Assembly (NCBI RefSeq): GCF_022690685.1
Contig: NZ_JALCYY010000049.1
Location: 1-38,002, forward strand
Length of the DNA stretch: 38,002 nucleotides
Source of the DNA: Anaeromyxobacter terrae
GTDB lineage: Bacteria > Myxococcota > Myxococcia > Myxococcales > Anaeromyxobacteraceae
Direction of reading: 5' to 3'
Below are positions 27,201-33,196 of this stretch, one piece after another; within the stretch, counting starts at the first letter, position 1; each line of letters begins with the position of its first letter. The notes beneath the pieces are model-generated. The model searched no databases. It was not told the DNA's origin and saw only the letters and a program-made list of their open reading frames with translations. The translations under genes were made by a program, and so were the position numbers.

Positions 27201-28250
27201 ATGACCCGCACGCTCGCCCTCGCCCTCGCCGCCCTCCTCGCGGCCTGCTCCCGCTCCGGCTCCGACGGCGGGAAGGAGCGGCTCAAGGCCCGCACCGAGG
27301 CGGAGCGCGCCGCGCACCCCGCGTTCGACTTCTCCAGGCCGGGCGAGGCGCTGGTCCTCTCCGCGGACGACGTCGCCCGCGCCCTCGGCTCCTTCGAGTG
27401 GTCTGCGGCGATCGACTGGACGGTCGCGAGCGAGGGCGCCGCCGAGCCCGCGCCGTCCCCCGCGCCACCCCCTCCGCCCGCCGCCGAGGGTCAGCCGGCG
27501 CCGTTCGTGCCCCCACCTCCGCCGCCGCCCCGGGTCCACGCGCTCGAGCGCCACCGGATCCGCCAGGCCACGACCGGCGAGTTCCGGGTCGAGATGGACG
27601 TCGATCCCGGCCTCGGCCCCGGCTCCGACACCGGCAAGGAGATCGTCTACGCGGGCGGGATGACCTACGCGCGCGCCCGGTTCGCGCCGTTCCGCGAGCG
27701 CCCGACCGACCACGGCCGCGACGCGCGCCGGTTCCGCGAGGACAGCTTCCACGTCGGCCGCGCGCTCACCGCGCTCTACGGCGGCGCGCTCGCGATCGAG
27801 CCCGCCGGCGACGCGACCGTGCTCGGCCGCACCGCGCGCCGCTACCGGCTCTCGCTCGCGCCCGGCGCCGCGGCGGGGACGAAGCCTCGCGTCCTCCCCG
27901 CCGGCACGCCCGATCCCGACTCCGCCGCCCGGTTCAAGTTCCTCGACGGGCGCGTGCCCGAGTCGGCCGAGGGCGAGCTCCTCCTCGACGCCGAGACCGG
28001 CGCCCCGCTGCGCCTCAGGCTCGCGGGCGCATTCACCGTGAAGGACGCGCCCGGCGTGCGCGCCACGGTGGAGCTGCTCGCGCAGGTGACGTCGCTCGGC
28101 GACAAGGTCGCCGCCATCGAGCCGCCGAAGTCGCCGCTGCCCGACGTCCGCAAGCCGCCCGGCGTTGCGGGCGCGCTCGAGGCCGCGGGCCTCAAGAAGA
28201 AGACCGAGGCCGAGGCCGGCGGGTCCGAGCCGGTCGACGACGAGCAGTAG
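27201..28250 (+). CDS. Hypothetical lipoprotein with a proline-rich segment
   Basis: 349 residues. The signal peptide ends in the lipobox LAAC (Cys16). A charged segment is followed by a proline-rich stretch (about residues 82-110, several runs of five to seven Pro) that may cross the periplasm or act as a spacer. The rest is a beta-rich domain (FRVEMDVDPGLG, KEIVYAGGMTYARARFAPF, ARRYRLSLAPG, GELLLDAETGAPLRLRLAGAF). The alternation of strands and the 'lipid-carrier' feel recall LolA/LppX-type folds, but this is only an impression. No catalytic motif is seen. It lies 49 nt after hflX and converges on the CoA-binding gene. Confidence 0.78.
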   Translation: MTRTLALALAALLAACSRSGSDGGKERLKARTEAERAAHPAFDFSRPGEALVLSADDVARALGSFEWSAAIDWTVASEGAAEPAPSPAPPPPPAAEGQPAPFVPPPPPPPRVHALERHRIRQATTGEFRVEMDVDPGLGPGSDTGKEIVYAGGMTYARARFAPFRERPTDHGRDARRFREDSFHVGRALTALYGGALAIEPAGDATVLGRTARRYRLSLAPGAAAGTKPRVLPAGTPDPDSAARFKFLDGRVPESAEGELLLDAETGAPLRLRLAGAFTVKDAPGVRATVELLAQVTSLGDKVAAIEPPKSPLPDVRKPPGVAGALEAAGLKKKTEAEAGGSEPVDDEQ

Positions 28251-28927: not shown

Positions 28928-29269
28928 ATGACCTCCATGGACAAGAAGAAGAAGCCCGGCGTCGCGGTGGTCACCGAGGGCACGGCCCAGGCCGCGCTCC
29001 GGCGTGCTCCCGCGAAGGAGCTCGCGCCCGAGGAGGAGAAGGTCCTCCGGATGCGCCTCGGCGCGGCGCCGCCCCGGGCAGCCCCGCTCGAGAAGGCGGG
29101 CGCGGGGCTCACGGACCTCGAGATCGAGCTGCTCGCCTACGAGATCGAGGCCCATCTGCGCTGGAAGGAGCACAGGGCCGCACACGAGGAGCGCGCGAGG
29201 CCGGCGCCCTCCCCGGTCCCCTCGCGGACGAAGGAGAAGATCGTCCGCGCGCTCCGCAAGAAGACATAG
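28928..29269 (+). CDS. Small basic hypothetical protein
   Basis: 113 residues from the ATG at 28928; a second ATG lies three codons later and a possible earlier one at 28901. The sequence is strongly charged: a Lys cluster at residues 5-8, an Ala/Pro/Glu-rich centre (APAKELAPEEEKVLRMRLGAAP with LTDLEIELLAYEIEAHLRWKEHR) likely to form helices, and a basic tail (RTKEKIVRALRKKT). No cysteines, signal peptide or membrane segment. I do not recognise a family. Sense frame usage and the Lys-rich ends support a real gene, but the start is uncertain and the ribosome-binding site is weak. Confidence 0.6.
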   Translation: MTSMDKKKKPGVAVVTEGTAQAALRRAPAKELAPEEEKVLRMRLGAAPPRAAPLEKAGAGLTDLEIELLAYEIEAHLRWKEHRAAHEERARPAPSPVPSRTKEKIVRALRKKT

Positions 29270-29296: not shown

Positions 29297-30667
29297 TCAC
29301 CTGCCCTCGAGCTTCCCCGCGAGCCGCCGCGCCGCCTCCACCGGCGCCGGCGGCTCGGCCGCATCCGGGAGCCGCCCCGCCGCGAGGAGCCCGGCGAGGT
29401 GGGCGGCGGTCCGCGGGTTCCGCCACCAGTCCTCATCGAACCGCTCGACGAGCCCGCGCCGGAGGGCCTCGCCCGCGCCTGCGCCCGCGAGCGCCGCGCC
29501 GAGCCGCGCCGCGTCCGCGTCGCGCGAGGCGCGCGCGAGCTCCCATTCCGCGCCGGTGGCCGACGTGAGCGCCTCGCGGTGCGCCTCCCGCCACGCGGCG
29601 CCCGAGAGGCCCCGCTCCACCTCGGTGGCGACGCGCAGCGCGGCGGCGTCGGCGCGGAGCGCGAGGAGCCGGCGCAGCGCGAGGGCGCGCACGACGTCCG
29701 TCGCCTGGCGGCGCTCCACGTCCGCGCGATCGTGGAGCCAGCGCGGCTCGAGGAGGAGCGAGCCGAGGAGCCACGCGAGCGCCTCGCCGAGCACCGGTTC
29801 CCGCAGGTGCGGGCGCACCGCCCTCGCGGCGAACGCGCGCGCCACCGCGGCGAGCAGATCGTGCCAGTCGCCGGCGCCGCCGCGCGGCCGGAACGAGACG
29901 CGCGCGCCGACCGCGTGCGCGCCCGGCCACTTGGCGGGACGCGCGGCGTCGTCGATCCGCACGCCGCCGAGGTCGAGCCCGAGCGGCTCGAGCGTGAGCT
30001 CGAGCGCGATGGGGAGCATGCCCGGGCGGAACAACCCGTCGTACCGCGGCGCCTCGACGAGGTGGAGGAGGTCGGCGCGACCGAGATCGCCCGCGGGGTG
30101 CGGCGCGAGCCCGAGCTCGCGGCGGGCGGCGAAGGCGAGGACGTCGCGCCAGGCGTCGTCGGACGCGGCGAGCGTCGCGTCCCCCTCCACCACGATGCGC
30201 CAGTCGGGCGCGAGCCCGACCTCCGCCCGCGCCCGCGCGCGGGCCTCGGCGGCGCGCTCGCGCAGGGAGGCAGCCGGCGCGAGCGCCTCGGCCGCCGCAC
30301 CGGCGAGCTCGAGCCGGCGCGCCCGATCCCGCTCGCGCAGGAGCGCGATTTCGAGCGCGGCGAGGGAGGCCCTACCATCGGGGCCGCGCGCCGCGGCCTG
30401 CGCCTCTGCAGCGCGCCAGGCCTCCTCGTCCTCGGCCTGGGCGCGCTCGGCGCGGAGCGCGCCGACCCGCGCCGCGAGCGGCGCGTCGCCGGCCTCCCGC
30501 AGCGCCTTCACCGTGTCGCGGTGCGCCGCGTGCGGCCGGGCGGCGAACGGCCGGGCGAGCGCCGGCTCCGGCTCGAGCCCGGCGACGTGGCGGAACCGCT
30601 CCTCGTCGAGGGCGGCGCCGAGCGCGTCGAGCTCGCCCGGCAGCAGATCCATCGGGTGGGCGTCCAT
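29297..30667 (-). CDS. M3-peptidase-like protein lacking the HExxH motif (probable pseudoenzyme)
   Basis: 456 residues, cytosolic, mostly helical, extremely Ala/Arg-rich. The second half follows the layout of M3-like gluzincin peptidases as I know them: ADLLHLVEAPRYDGLFRPGM (198-217), VGARVSFRPRGGAGDWHDLL (253-272), then EALAWLLGSLLLEPRWL (295-311) and RFDEDWWRNPRTAAHLAGLLAAG (409-431). In active relatives the segment after DW/DY reads LLHExGH. Here it reads LLAAVARAF, with Ala273, Ala274 and Arg277 in place of His, Glu and His. Glu295, the position of the third zinc ligand, remains. I infer a catalytically dead relative, perhaps a peptide-binding or regulatory protein. It is single and divergent from the FmdB-like gene. 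Confidence 0.62.
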   Translation of the reverse strand: MDAHPMDLLPGELDALGAALDEERFRHVAGLEPEPALARPFAARPHAAHRDTVKALREAGDAPLAARVGALRAERAQAEDEEAWRAAEAQAAARGPDGRASLAALEIALLRERDRARRLELAGAAAEALAPAASLRERAAEARARARAEVGLAPDWRIVVEGDATLAASDDAWRDVLAFAARRELGLAPHPAGDLGRADLLHLVEAPRYDGLFRPGMLPIALELTLEPLGLDLGGVRIDDAARPAKWPGAHAVGARVSFRPRGGAGDWHDLLAAVARAFAARAVRPHLREPVLGEALAWLLGSLLLEPRWLHDRADVERRQATDVVRALALRRLLALRADAAALRVATEVERGLSGAAWREAHREALTSATGAEWELARASRDADAARLGAALAGAGAGEALRRGLVERFDEDWWRNPRTAAHLAGLLAAGRLPDAAEPPAPVEAARRLAGKLEGR

Positions 30668-30763
30668 GATAGAAGGCTTCCTCCGACCCGGTGGGGCGAC
30701 GGGCGCCGAGCGCGAACCAGGATCGCGGCGACGGCGCTCCCACCTACCGCGCCGGGCGGCCGC

Positions 30764-30812: not shown

Positions 30813-31097
30813 ATGCCCATCTACGAGTACGAGTGCCCCAAGTGCGGGCGCTTCGATCACCTCCAGAAGATGTCCTCGCCGCCGCTCGAGATCCACGAGG
30901 TCTGCGGCTCGAAGGTGACGAAGGTCATGTCCGCGAGCGCGTTCGCCTTCAAGGGCTCGGGCTTCTACATCACGGACTACAACGGCCGGAACTCGGCCGC
31001 GATCACCGGCAAGGCCGACAAGCCCGAGTCGAAGCCGGAGCCGAAGGCCGACGCCTGCGCGACCTGCCCCGCGAAGCAGGGCGCCGGCGCGTGCTGA
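30813..31097 (+). CDS. FmdB-family zinc-ribbon protein with a His-for-Cys change
   Basis: 94 residues. The N-terminus is the typical FmdB/CxxC_CXXC_SSSS start (MPIYEYECPKCGRFDHLQKM), with C8-x2-C11 as the first knuckle. The second knuckle, normally CPxCG, reads H28-E-V-C31-G, so one cysteine is replaced by histidine; a CCHC zinc site remains possible. The conserved FKGSGFYITDYN block (46-57) follows. The tail is Lys/Pro/Glu-rich and ends with C82, C85 and C94. Family members are small putative regulatory or zinc-binding proteins of unclear role. A consensus-like promoter lies just upstream. The next gene, rluA-like, starts 76 nt later. Confidence 0.88.
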   Translation: MPIYEYECPKCGRFDHLQKMSSPPLEIHEVCGSKVTKVMSASAFAFKGSGFYITDYNGRNSAAITGKADKPESKPEPKADACATCPAKQGAGAC

Positions 31098-31173: not shown

Positions 31174-32067
31174 TTGAAGCGGCTCTCCCTCGTCGTCCCC
31201 GCGGCTGACGCGGGCGAGCGGCTCGATCGCTTCATCGCCGCGCGCGGCGGCATCTCGCGCGGCCTCGCGCGGCGCGCGCTCGACGCGGGCGGCGTGTTCC
31301 TCGACGGGCGCCGCTGCAAGGTGTCCGGCAAGCTCCTCCACGCCGGCCAGCAGGTGGTCGTGAACCTCGAGGAGGCGGGCCGCTCCGCGCCCGCGCTCGC
31401 CGCGCTCGAGCGCTCCCGGCTCATCTACGCGGACCAGGACCTCGTCGCGGTGGACAAGCCCGCCGGCGTGCCGTCGCAGCCGACGCTCACGAGCGACCAG
31501 GGCACCCTGCCCGAGCTCGTCGCTGCCTTGCTCGGCGCTCCGGTGACGCTCGTCCACCGGCTCGACCGCGAGACGAGCGGCGTCACCGTGCTCGCCCGCA
31601 GCGCGGCGGCGGCCGCGGCGCTCGCCGAGGCGTTCCGCACGGGAACGCCGGAGAAGACCTACCTCGCGCTCTGCGCCCGCGCCCCGTCGCCGCCCGAGGG
31701 GCGGATCGACGCGCCGCTCGGGAAGGATCCGGCGCGCGCCGGGCTCCGCCGCGTGGATCCGCGCGGCGACGCCGCGGCGACCCGCTACCGTACGCTCCGC
31801 GAAGGCCCGCTCGCCGCGCTCGTCGAGGCGCGGCCCGAGACCGGCCGCACGCACCAGATCCGCGTCCACCTCGCCCACCTCGGCGCGCCGCTCCTCGGCG
31901 ATTCGCGCTACGGCGGACCTCGCCGCGTGGGCGAGGTGGCGATCCCGCGCGTCATGCTCCACGCGCGCCGGCTCGAGATCGATCATCCGTCGACCGGCGC
32001 GCGCCTGGTCCTCGAGGCGCCCGTGCCGGAGGATCTCCGCGCGGCCGAGGCCGCGCTCCTCCCCTGA
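31174..32067 (+). CDS. RluA-family RNA pseudouridine synthase
   Basis: 297 residues from a TTG at 31174; no in-frame ATG or GTG lies at a fitting distance, so TTG is the best start. The N-terminal S4 RNA-binding domain covers about residues 14-65 (RLDRFIAARGGISRGLARRALDAGGVFLDG). The catalytic domain begins near LIYADQDLVAVDKPAGVPSQ and contains the catalytic D131 in HRLDRETSGVTVLAR, then the ARPETGRTHQIRVHLAHLG block and LGDSRYGG. It isomerises uridines in rRNA or tRNA to pseudouridine. The target (RluA, RluC or RluD type) cannot be fixed from sequence. It converges on the DUF4303 gene. Confidence 0.93.
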   Translation: MKRLSLVVPAADAGERLDRFIAARGGISRGLARRALDAGGVFLDGRRCKVSGKLLHAGQQVVVNLEEAGRSAPALAALERSRLIYADQDLVAVDKPAGVPSQPTLTSDQGTLPELVAALLGAPVTLVHRLDRETSGVTVLARSAAAAAALAEAFRTGTPEKTYLALCARAPSPPEGRIDAPLGKDPARAGLRRVDPRGDAAATRYRTLREGPLAALVEARPETGRTHQIRVHLAHLGAPLLGDSRYGGPRRVGEVAIPRVMLHARRLEIDHPSTGARLVLEAPVPEDLRAAEAALLP

Positions 32068-32110: not shown

Positions 32111-33196
32111 TCAGGACCGCCGCGGCACGAACGGCTCCGGGTTCTGGAGCTTGTAGGTGGCCGGGTCCATGACGCTCTCGGGGAACCGACGCGGGCGGAG
32201 CTCGTGCAGCACGCGGGCGGTGTTCTCGGCGAGCGTGGAGGCGATCTTGAGGCGCCGGTCGCGCTCCACGAACGCTGCGACGAGCGTCTGCATCCGGTGG
32301 ATCTGCCCCTCCGGCACCGCGCCGATGCGGCGGACGAGGAAGAGCGCGCTGCCGGCGAGCCACACCTCGCGCGTCTCGAGCTCGCGGGCGGAGTCGAACG
32401 GCGGCGCGAACCCGTAGTGGGCGAGTAGGTCGATGAGCTTCGGCACCACCTTGGGCCCGAACTTCACGAGCTCGGCCTCCACGTCCCACGGCGACATGCC
32501 GCGCGCCCGCGCCTCCTCGGCGATGGGCGTCTTCCACTCCATGTACAGGTCCTCGTACAGCGCGAGCCAGATCCGCATCCGCTCGCGCCGCGGCGCGCGG
32601 TTCACGGCCCGCACGAGCGGGGCGGCGTCCGTCTCGCGCAGGTGGCGCTCCACCGTCGGCACCGGGTTCAGGGCGCGCAGGTTCCGGACGAAGAAGGCGC
32701 GCGACGGGTGCGGGCAGAGGACGTTCACGGTGAGGAACGCACGATCGGCGCCCCGGCCGAAGAGGCCGGCGCGGTCGACCGACTTGAGCGCGCCCACGAT
32801 CGCCGCGAGGATCGCGCGGTCCTGCGACTCGCGCCGCCCCGCCGGATCCGGCAGCGCCACCTCCCGGACCCCCGCGTCGAAGTCGTGGTAGTCCCAGTCC
32901 GCCGCAGACCAGCGCAGGAGGCGCCGCCCCGCCTCGCCGCGGAAGCGCGGGTCGTCGGCGGCGCGCGCGGTCGCCGCGCGCGCGAGCCCCTCCTCCGTGT
33001 TCGCCGAGGCGCGCACCGACGCGTAGCCGGACTCGGCGTCGGTGTAGAGCGCGAAGGCGTAGAGCGTCTCCGAGCCGATGCGCTTGCGGAGCGCACGGAC
33101 GGCGGCGGCGGTCCGGTCGGTCAGCGTGCGCCGGAAGGCGGCGAGGTCGAATGGGGCTACCGGGGGGCCGACGTCGGCGTGGGAGGGCGCGCGCAC
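32111..33196 (-). CDS. DUF4303-like hypothetical protein
   Basis: 361 residues from a GTG at 33196. The N-terminal 110 residues match the DUF4303 pattern as I know it: ETLYAFALYTDAESGYASV (43-61), SANTEEGLARA (65-75) and LRWSAADWDYHDF (94-106). The remaining 250 residues are soluble, alpha/beta, charged, with HRMQTLVAAFVERDRRLKIASTLAENTARVLHEL near the end. There is no signal peptide or membrane segment. DUF4303 proteins occur in varied contexts, including toxin-immunity loci, but no toxin gene is near, so I make no functional claim. There is no clear ribosome-binding site before the GTG. Confidence 0.72.
   Translation of the reverse strand: MRAPSHADVGPPVAPFDLAAFRRTLTDRTAAAVRALRKRIGSETLYAFALYTDAESGYASVRASANTEEGLARAATARAADDPRFRGEAGRRLLRWSAADWDYHDFDAGVREVALPDPAGRRESQDRAILAAIVGALKSVDRAGLFGRGADRAFLTVNVLCPHPSRAFFVRNLRALNPVPTVERHLRETDAAPLVRAVNRAPRRERMRIWLALYEDLYMEWKTPIAEEARARGMSPWDVEAELVKFGPKVVPKLIDLLAHYGFAPPFDSARELETREVWLAGSALFLVRRIGAVPEGQIHRMQTLVAAFVERDRRLKIASTLAENTARVLHELRPRRFPESVMDPATYKLQNPEPFVPRRS

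Follow-up and report, generated by a model that had tools for sequence, protein, structure and literature searches.

We consider it probable that the gene at positions 29297 to 30667 (reverse strand) of the window, the 38,002-nucleotide stretch of DNA of the soil bacterium Anaeromyxobacter terrae that was analysed, encodes a maintained pseudopeptidase of the M2/M3/M32 gluzincin fold, vertically descended from an HExGH...E zinc peptidase; its most likely present role, put forward more tentatively, is binding. The open reading frame of this M3-like gene, which belongs to a subfamily that we call A, is intact, starts with ATG and encodes 456 amino acids; a ribosome-binding-like site, identified by its sequence (GGAGGAAG, positions 30677 to 30684, reverse strand), lies 9 nt upstream of the start codon. 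The gene is present in single copy in the A. terrae genome, and none of the plasmid records that were searched carries it. Its product looks cytosolic and mostly helical, without an evident signal peptide, and the nearest named relatives are A. soli (92% identical) and A. oryzae (69%).

All of the residues named in a first-pass annotation of this DNA are present in the reading frame, which contains the landmarks G263-G264-A-G-D267-W268, A273-A274-V275-A276-R277, E295, L306-E-P-R-W-L and F410-D-E-D-W-W-R-N-P418. By alignment, G-A-G-D-W (residues 264 to 268; positions 29864 to 29878, like all protein features below on the reverse strand) represents the GG..DW segment preceding HExGH, with Gly264 conserved in nearly all family members. 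Models and alignment place helix 265-283 (29819 to 29875) on the HExGH helix 299-317 of the Myxococcus xanthus ortholog and helix 291-306 (29750 to 29797) on its third-ligand helix 333-348. The C-terminal block E-R-F-D-E-D-W-W-R-N-P (residues 408 to 418; 29414 to 29446) is invariant or nearly so in the alignments and is retained by HExGH-bearing and dead members of subfamily A alike.

Neither Pfam nor NCBIfam searches with the A. terrae protein gave a match, nor did a comparison of sequence profile A1 with PDB sequences, and the link to M3 was thus reached solely via HExGH-bearing relatives and structure; this bacterial family is without a Pfam or NCBIfam entry of its own. Of 60 relatives, 52 had a homolog, and scanning genome contigs with a profile yielded 80 loci, distributed over Anaeromyxobacter, Myxococcaceae, Archangiaceae, unnamed Myxococcota and Gemmatimonadota, many of them with HExGH. 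The best E value of HExGH members against the NCBIfam M3 oligoendopeptidase model TIGR02290 was 1e-9, and Pfam Peptidase_M3 (PF01432) weakly matched 18 of 38 members at E<=0.1 (best, 1.4e-6); wherever a curated Pfam or NCBIfam cut-off was shown, HExGH members scored under it. The 38 members gave no match to Pfam M2 at E 0.1 and a single one to M32 (E 0.03). The A. terrae genome also encodes two distant true M3 peptidases, which a profile of HExGH members matched at E 2.4e-7 with HELGH aligned on HESGH, and a profile headed by the A. terrae protein placed A-A-V-A-R on the HESGH of a true M3 peptidase.

The AlphaFold2 model of the A. terrae protein (mean pLDDT 94.6, pTM 0.93) is a mostly helical ellipsoid over the whole chain, as expected of the gluzincin M2/M3/M32 fold. 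The best 32 matches listed by Foldseek against the PDB were M3, M2 and M32 peptidases, headed by Pz peptidase A (E 6e-6), and VIA-align superposed 445 of the 456 residues on the ACE N-domain at 3.6 Å (Z 24.5), with oligoendopeptidase F (2h1j) scoring Z 23.5. The same fold picture was obtained with the M. xanthus ortholog (pLDDT 95.0; Z 25.5 with ACE2, 24.5 with Pz peptidase A and 24.8 with a thermostable carboxypeptidase), whose model has HEMGH in helix 299-317 and Glu337 in the third-ligand helix 333-348. The first-pass annotation had proposed homology to M3-type gluzincins, with structure prediction and a structural search as a check; the fold and profile comparisons bear this homology out and the structural search returned M2/M3/M32 similarity. 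As far as the models go, the label "M3-like" is correct if taken broadly to mean the M2/M3/M32 fold; M3 is not set apart from the other two families by the structure. The fold and profile evidence led us to reject the idea that the protein is unrelated and resembles these peptidases by chance.

Every residue of the HExxH motif that characterizes catalytic M3 peptidases has been lost from the A. terrae protein. Ala273, Ala274 and Arg277, within A-A-V-A-R (residues 273 to 277; 29837 to 29851), align to H, E and H of HExGH in homologs, and these columns hold H, E and H in all HExGH members. This alignment, together with the profile placement on HESGH, makes the correspondence of the two sites more than chance. 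HExGH is absent from 12 of 12 full-length aligned Anaeromyxobacteraceae A orthologs. Same-locus orthologs in Myxococcus, Corallococcus and Archangium, like the homologs in Gemmatimonadota, have HExGH and then Glu 25 residues on; by motif state, 51 members of the tree are HEH and 33 are dead. Ortholog alignment thus upholds the earlier claim that the whole zinc and acid triad was lost, and extends it across the genus and family. Judged from its residues, gluzincin-style binding of a catalytic zinc would be impossible for the A. terrae protein, and so it should not hydrolyse peptides.

The frame around the lost site, which had been described as intact, retains its landmarks but has been altered between and around them. 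In Anaeromyxobacteraceae, seven residues have been deleted from the interhelical loop, where HExGH members bear a conserved P-x-E-x-R-x-L-G; this deletion reduces the spacing from residue 277 to Glu295 to 18, compared with 25 in HExGH members. Conserved cavity residues have also been replaced: His280, Tyr346, Glu347, Tyr363, Tyr388, Tyr392, Arg394 and Trp396 (A. terrae numbering) are conserved in HExGH subfamily A and not in dead members, with less certainty for positions 280, 388 and 392, where a second alignment is offset. Given their place beside the motif helices, these residues probably line the cleft. Common to HExGH and dead members are Arg118, Leu166, Asp199, Gly264, Arg327, Arg338 and the block E412-D-x-W-R-N-P418. 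The ancestral cleft chemistry has therefore been lost as a whole, with other surfaces kept. Such a wholesale loss speaks against peptide binding of the ancestral style, and the peptide-binding role that had been suggested is weakened for the old cleft, since its conserved Tyr, Glu and Trp went with the zinc site.

The third zinc ligand had been regarded as kept, in the form of Glu295 (codon GAG, 29783 to 29785), which occupies the aligned third-ligand column, 18 residues on versus about 25. Its species distribution does not support this view, and on these grounds we set aside as unlikely the idea of Glu295 as a retained metal ligand. Glu is found in this column, encoded by GAG, in A. terrae and two sister species only; the next clade within the genus has Ala or Val (GCG, GCC, GTC), and other Anaeromyxobacteraceae have Ala, Phe (TTC) or Gln there or in the adjacent column. 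A single Ala-to-Glu change accounts for this distribution better than several independent losses, and Glu295 is probably a secondary change.

HExGH-bearing and dead versions share neighbouring genes, which indicates that the motif was lost in place, in orthologs. A gene for an RluA-type pseudouridine synthase (31174 to 32067, forward strand) is a syntenic neighbour in both Anaeromyxobacteraceae and Myxococcaceae. On the opposite side, a lipoprotein-like gene (27201 to 28250, forward) is found at 7 of 11 Anaeromyxobacteraceae loci, at all 14 HExGH Myxococcaceae loci and at 10 of 12 loci of a third set (Myxococcaceae and Archangiaceae, mostly dead). A small convergent gene without a Pfam match (28955 to 29269, forward) is a neighbour at 10 of 11 Anaeromyxobacteraceae loci and at some in Myxococcaceae. 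Since HExGH is found in M3 and in Gemmatimonadota, we infer that the direction of change was loss, and HExGH orthologs at the same Myxococcaceae locus attest to the descent. Two further genes were observed nearby: an FmdB-type zinc-ribbon gene (30813 to 31097, forward) sits between the pseudopeptidase and RluA-type genes, and a DUF4303 protein (E 8e-33) is encoded beside the pseudouridine synthase (32111 to 33196, reverse), among the compared loci in Anaeromyxobacter only.

The gene is under purifying selection. The reading frame is intact across the family, and comparison with the two nearest relatives gave Nei-Gojobori dN/dS values of 0.17 and 0.23; with third codon positions at 96% G+C, the dS estimate is probably too low and the actual ratio, if anything, smaller. 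Nonsynonymous change was lowest in residues 301 to 360, not at the old motif site. The Anaeromyxobacteraceae A proteins have longer branches and evolve faster than HExGH members. In two draft genomes (G012 and G016), the gene lies in pieces across frames or contigs, possibly through assembly error and possibly through real disruption.

In a whole-phylum search, most Myxococcaceae genomes were found to have two family members, A and an unlinked paralog, B. Both could be read in 57 genomes, where HExxH was present in both (23 genomes), in neither (30), in B only (4) or in A only (0), so that the states agree in 53 of 57. The A. terrae genome and those of its two nearest relatives have no paralog B, and A. 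terrae has no other family member besides A. In other Anaeromyxobacteraceae, the motif of B has decayed by degrees, mostly reading HELG and then a non-His residue, with the stages HELGA, HELGV, HEMGV and HELAT and, further along, HAVGV and RALGS. Most of these B copies have lost the second His alone, and together the variants document, in nature, successive steps in the loss of an active site; paralog B of genome G110 reads HQMGH, in which the catalytic Glu is changed to Gln with both His kept, mimicking the usual laboratory inactivating change. Some Myxococcota genomes with a dead A also encode members of a third subgroup, C, in which HEAGH or HEGGH is intact. The neighbourhood of paralog B offered no functional clue.

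If loss is taken as irreversible, HExGH disappeared repeatedly, about 6 to 8 times; on an RpoB tree, from which one row (G013, wrong frame) was pruned, the count under this assumption was about 8 losses in A and 5 to 6 in B. These counts depend on irreversibility: under plain parsimony, a combined A+B tree required no more than 2 changes in A and 5 in B. Every B loss on the RpoB tree falls on branches where A was lost or already dead. A-dead lineages make up 70 to 76% of the branch length, however, giving a chance p of 0.11 to 0.25 for this placement, and independent-pair tests of co-loss had too few contrasts (2 to 5 pairs). We thus regard the co-loss of A and B as suggestive, a lead rather than a result, and statistically not established. 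That the two paralogs form one functional unit, in which cleavage was switched off several times independently across Myxococcota, the proteins were retained and an essential noncatalytic role predates the loss, seems to us rather unlikely.

Protein A might alternatively be a regulatory subunit that pairs with and controls the unlinked B or a true M3 peptidase, like the catalytic and noncatalytic halves of M16B enzymes. Such pairing would fit the co-occurrence and agreeing motif states of A and B, the confinement of B losses to branches with A lost or dead and the true M3 peptidases of A. terrae, but A and B are unlinked, their co-loss is nonsignificant by branch-length share, B is dead as well in Anaeromyxobacteraceae and, with B absent from A. 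terrae and its two nearest relatives, A would have no relative of its own family to regulate. We thus judge this reading to be distinctly improbable. Inhibition of a paralog, which the first-pass annotation had entertained, is excluded in the A. terrae genome for an active family paralog by the absence of one; the two distant M3 peptidases are possible partners.

The peptidase could also have become dispensable, with both copies decaying and B vanishing first in the A. terrae clade. Repeated motif loss in both paralogs, the graded stages of B and its absence from this clade would agree with such a relaxation, as would the long branches. Against it, the aligned full-length Anaeromyxobacteraceae sequences show A to be present with an open frame under the constraint described above, its C-terminal block and synteny are retained and its predicted fold is confident, which makes a gene heading for loss an unlikely explanation. 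Least plausible of all is an enzyme that now uses another chemistry or a metal site elsewhere in the protein. The fold of the cavity persists, and the review PMC10211241 points out that catalytic residues may have been relocated in some supposed pseudoenzymes, but the old-site residues vary freely among close relatives (AAVAR, EGVGR, LAVGR, DAAGR, GAVGQ) and no new invariant set of His, Cys, Asp or Glu was seen near the old site.

Under the preferred explanation of a maintained pseudopeptidase, an HExGH...E zinc peptidase of the kind still carried by Myxococcaceae at the same locus would have been inherited vertically and would have lost its zinc site in place, leaving a protein predicted not to hydrolyse peptides. 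The fold would then act as a rigid scaffold for a putative protein or peptide partner, with Arg118, Asp199, Arg327, Arg338 and the E-D-x-W-R-N-P block, common to HExGH and dead members, as candidate partner surfaces. The ancestral enzyme may have had partner binding as its second function, one that survived the end of cleavage; we put forward this scaffolding step tentatively, at somewhat below even chances. As an intact, selected gene with its zinc site entirely gone and same-locus relatives that have it, the protein is a clear candidate for a noncutting pseudoenzyme whose new job can be searched for, and the ortholog series offers natural material for studying which functions a peptidase fold has apart from cleavage.

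Among known systems, the M3 peptidases (oligoendopeptidase F, Pz peptidase A, thimet oligopeptidase; PF01432, TIGR02290) have the same fold as the A. terrae protein and share with its HExGH relatives the HExGH helix and the downstream Glu; unlike catalytic M3 enzymes, the A. terrae protein has no HExxH and no Pfam or NCBIfam match. The M2 peptidases ACE and ACE2 are alike in fold, with the highest Z scores, within 1 unit of M3, yet without a sequence match to family members, and the fold of M32 carboxypeptidases also matches. Our literature search found no paper on this bacterial family. Pseudopeptidases of other metallopeptidase families have been reviewed (PMC11266112, PMC12731061); in a word search, the former did not mention M3A, M32, neurolysin, thimet or ACE2. 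The inactive subunits and core proteins of M16B likewise lack the metal motif of the metallopeptidases to which they are homologous and are retained because they bind partners (PMC12731061, PMC11266112), but their family differs in its HXXEH motif and clam-shell architecture, and bacterial active/inactive pairs such as TTHA1264/TTHA1265 are encoded by neighbouring genes, a pairing not seen for the A. terrae protein. Family M2 has known gluzincin pseudopeptidases, ACN-1 of Caenorhabditis elegans and ANCE-2, -4 and -5 of Drosophila (PMC1325048), the latter apparently secreted. Whereas these M2/M3-fold pseudopeptidases that we found described are animal proteins of family M2, the present family is bacterial and of a different lineage; its active-site and dead versions occupy a single locus as orthologs, and a paralog displays the loss in graded steps.
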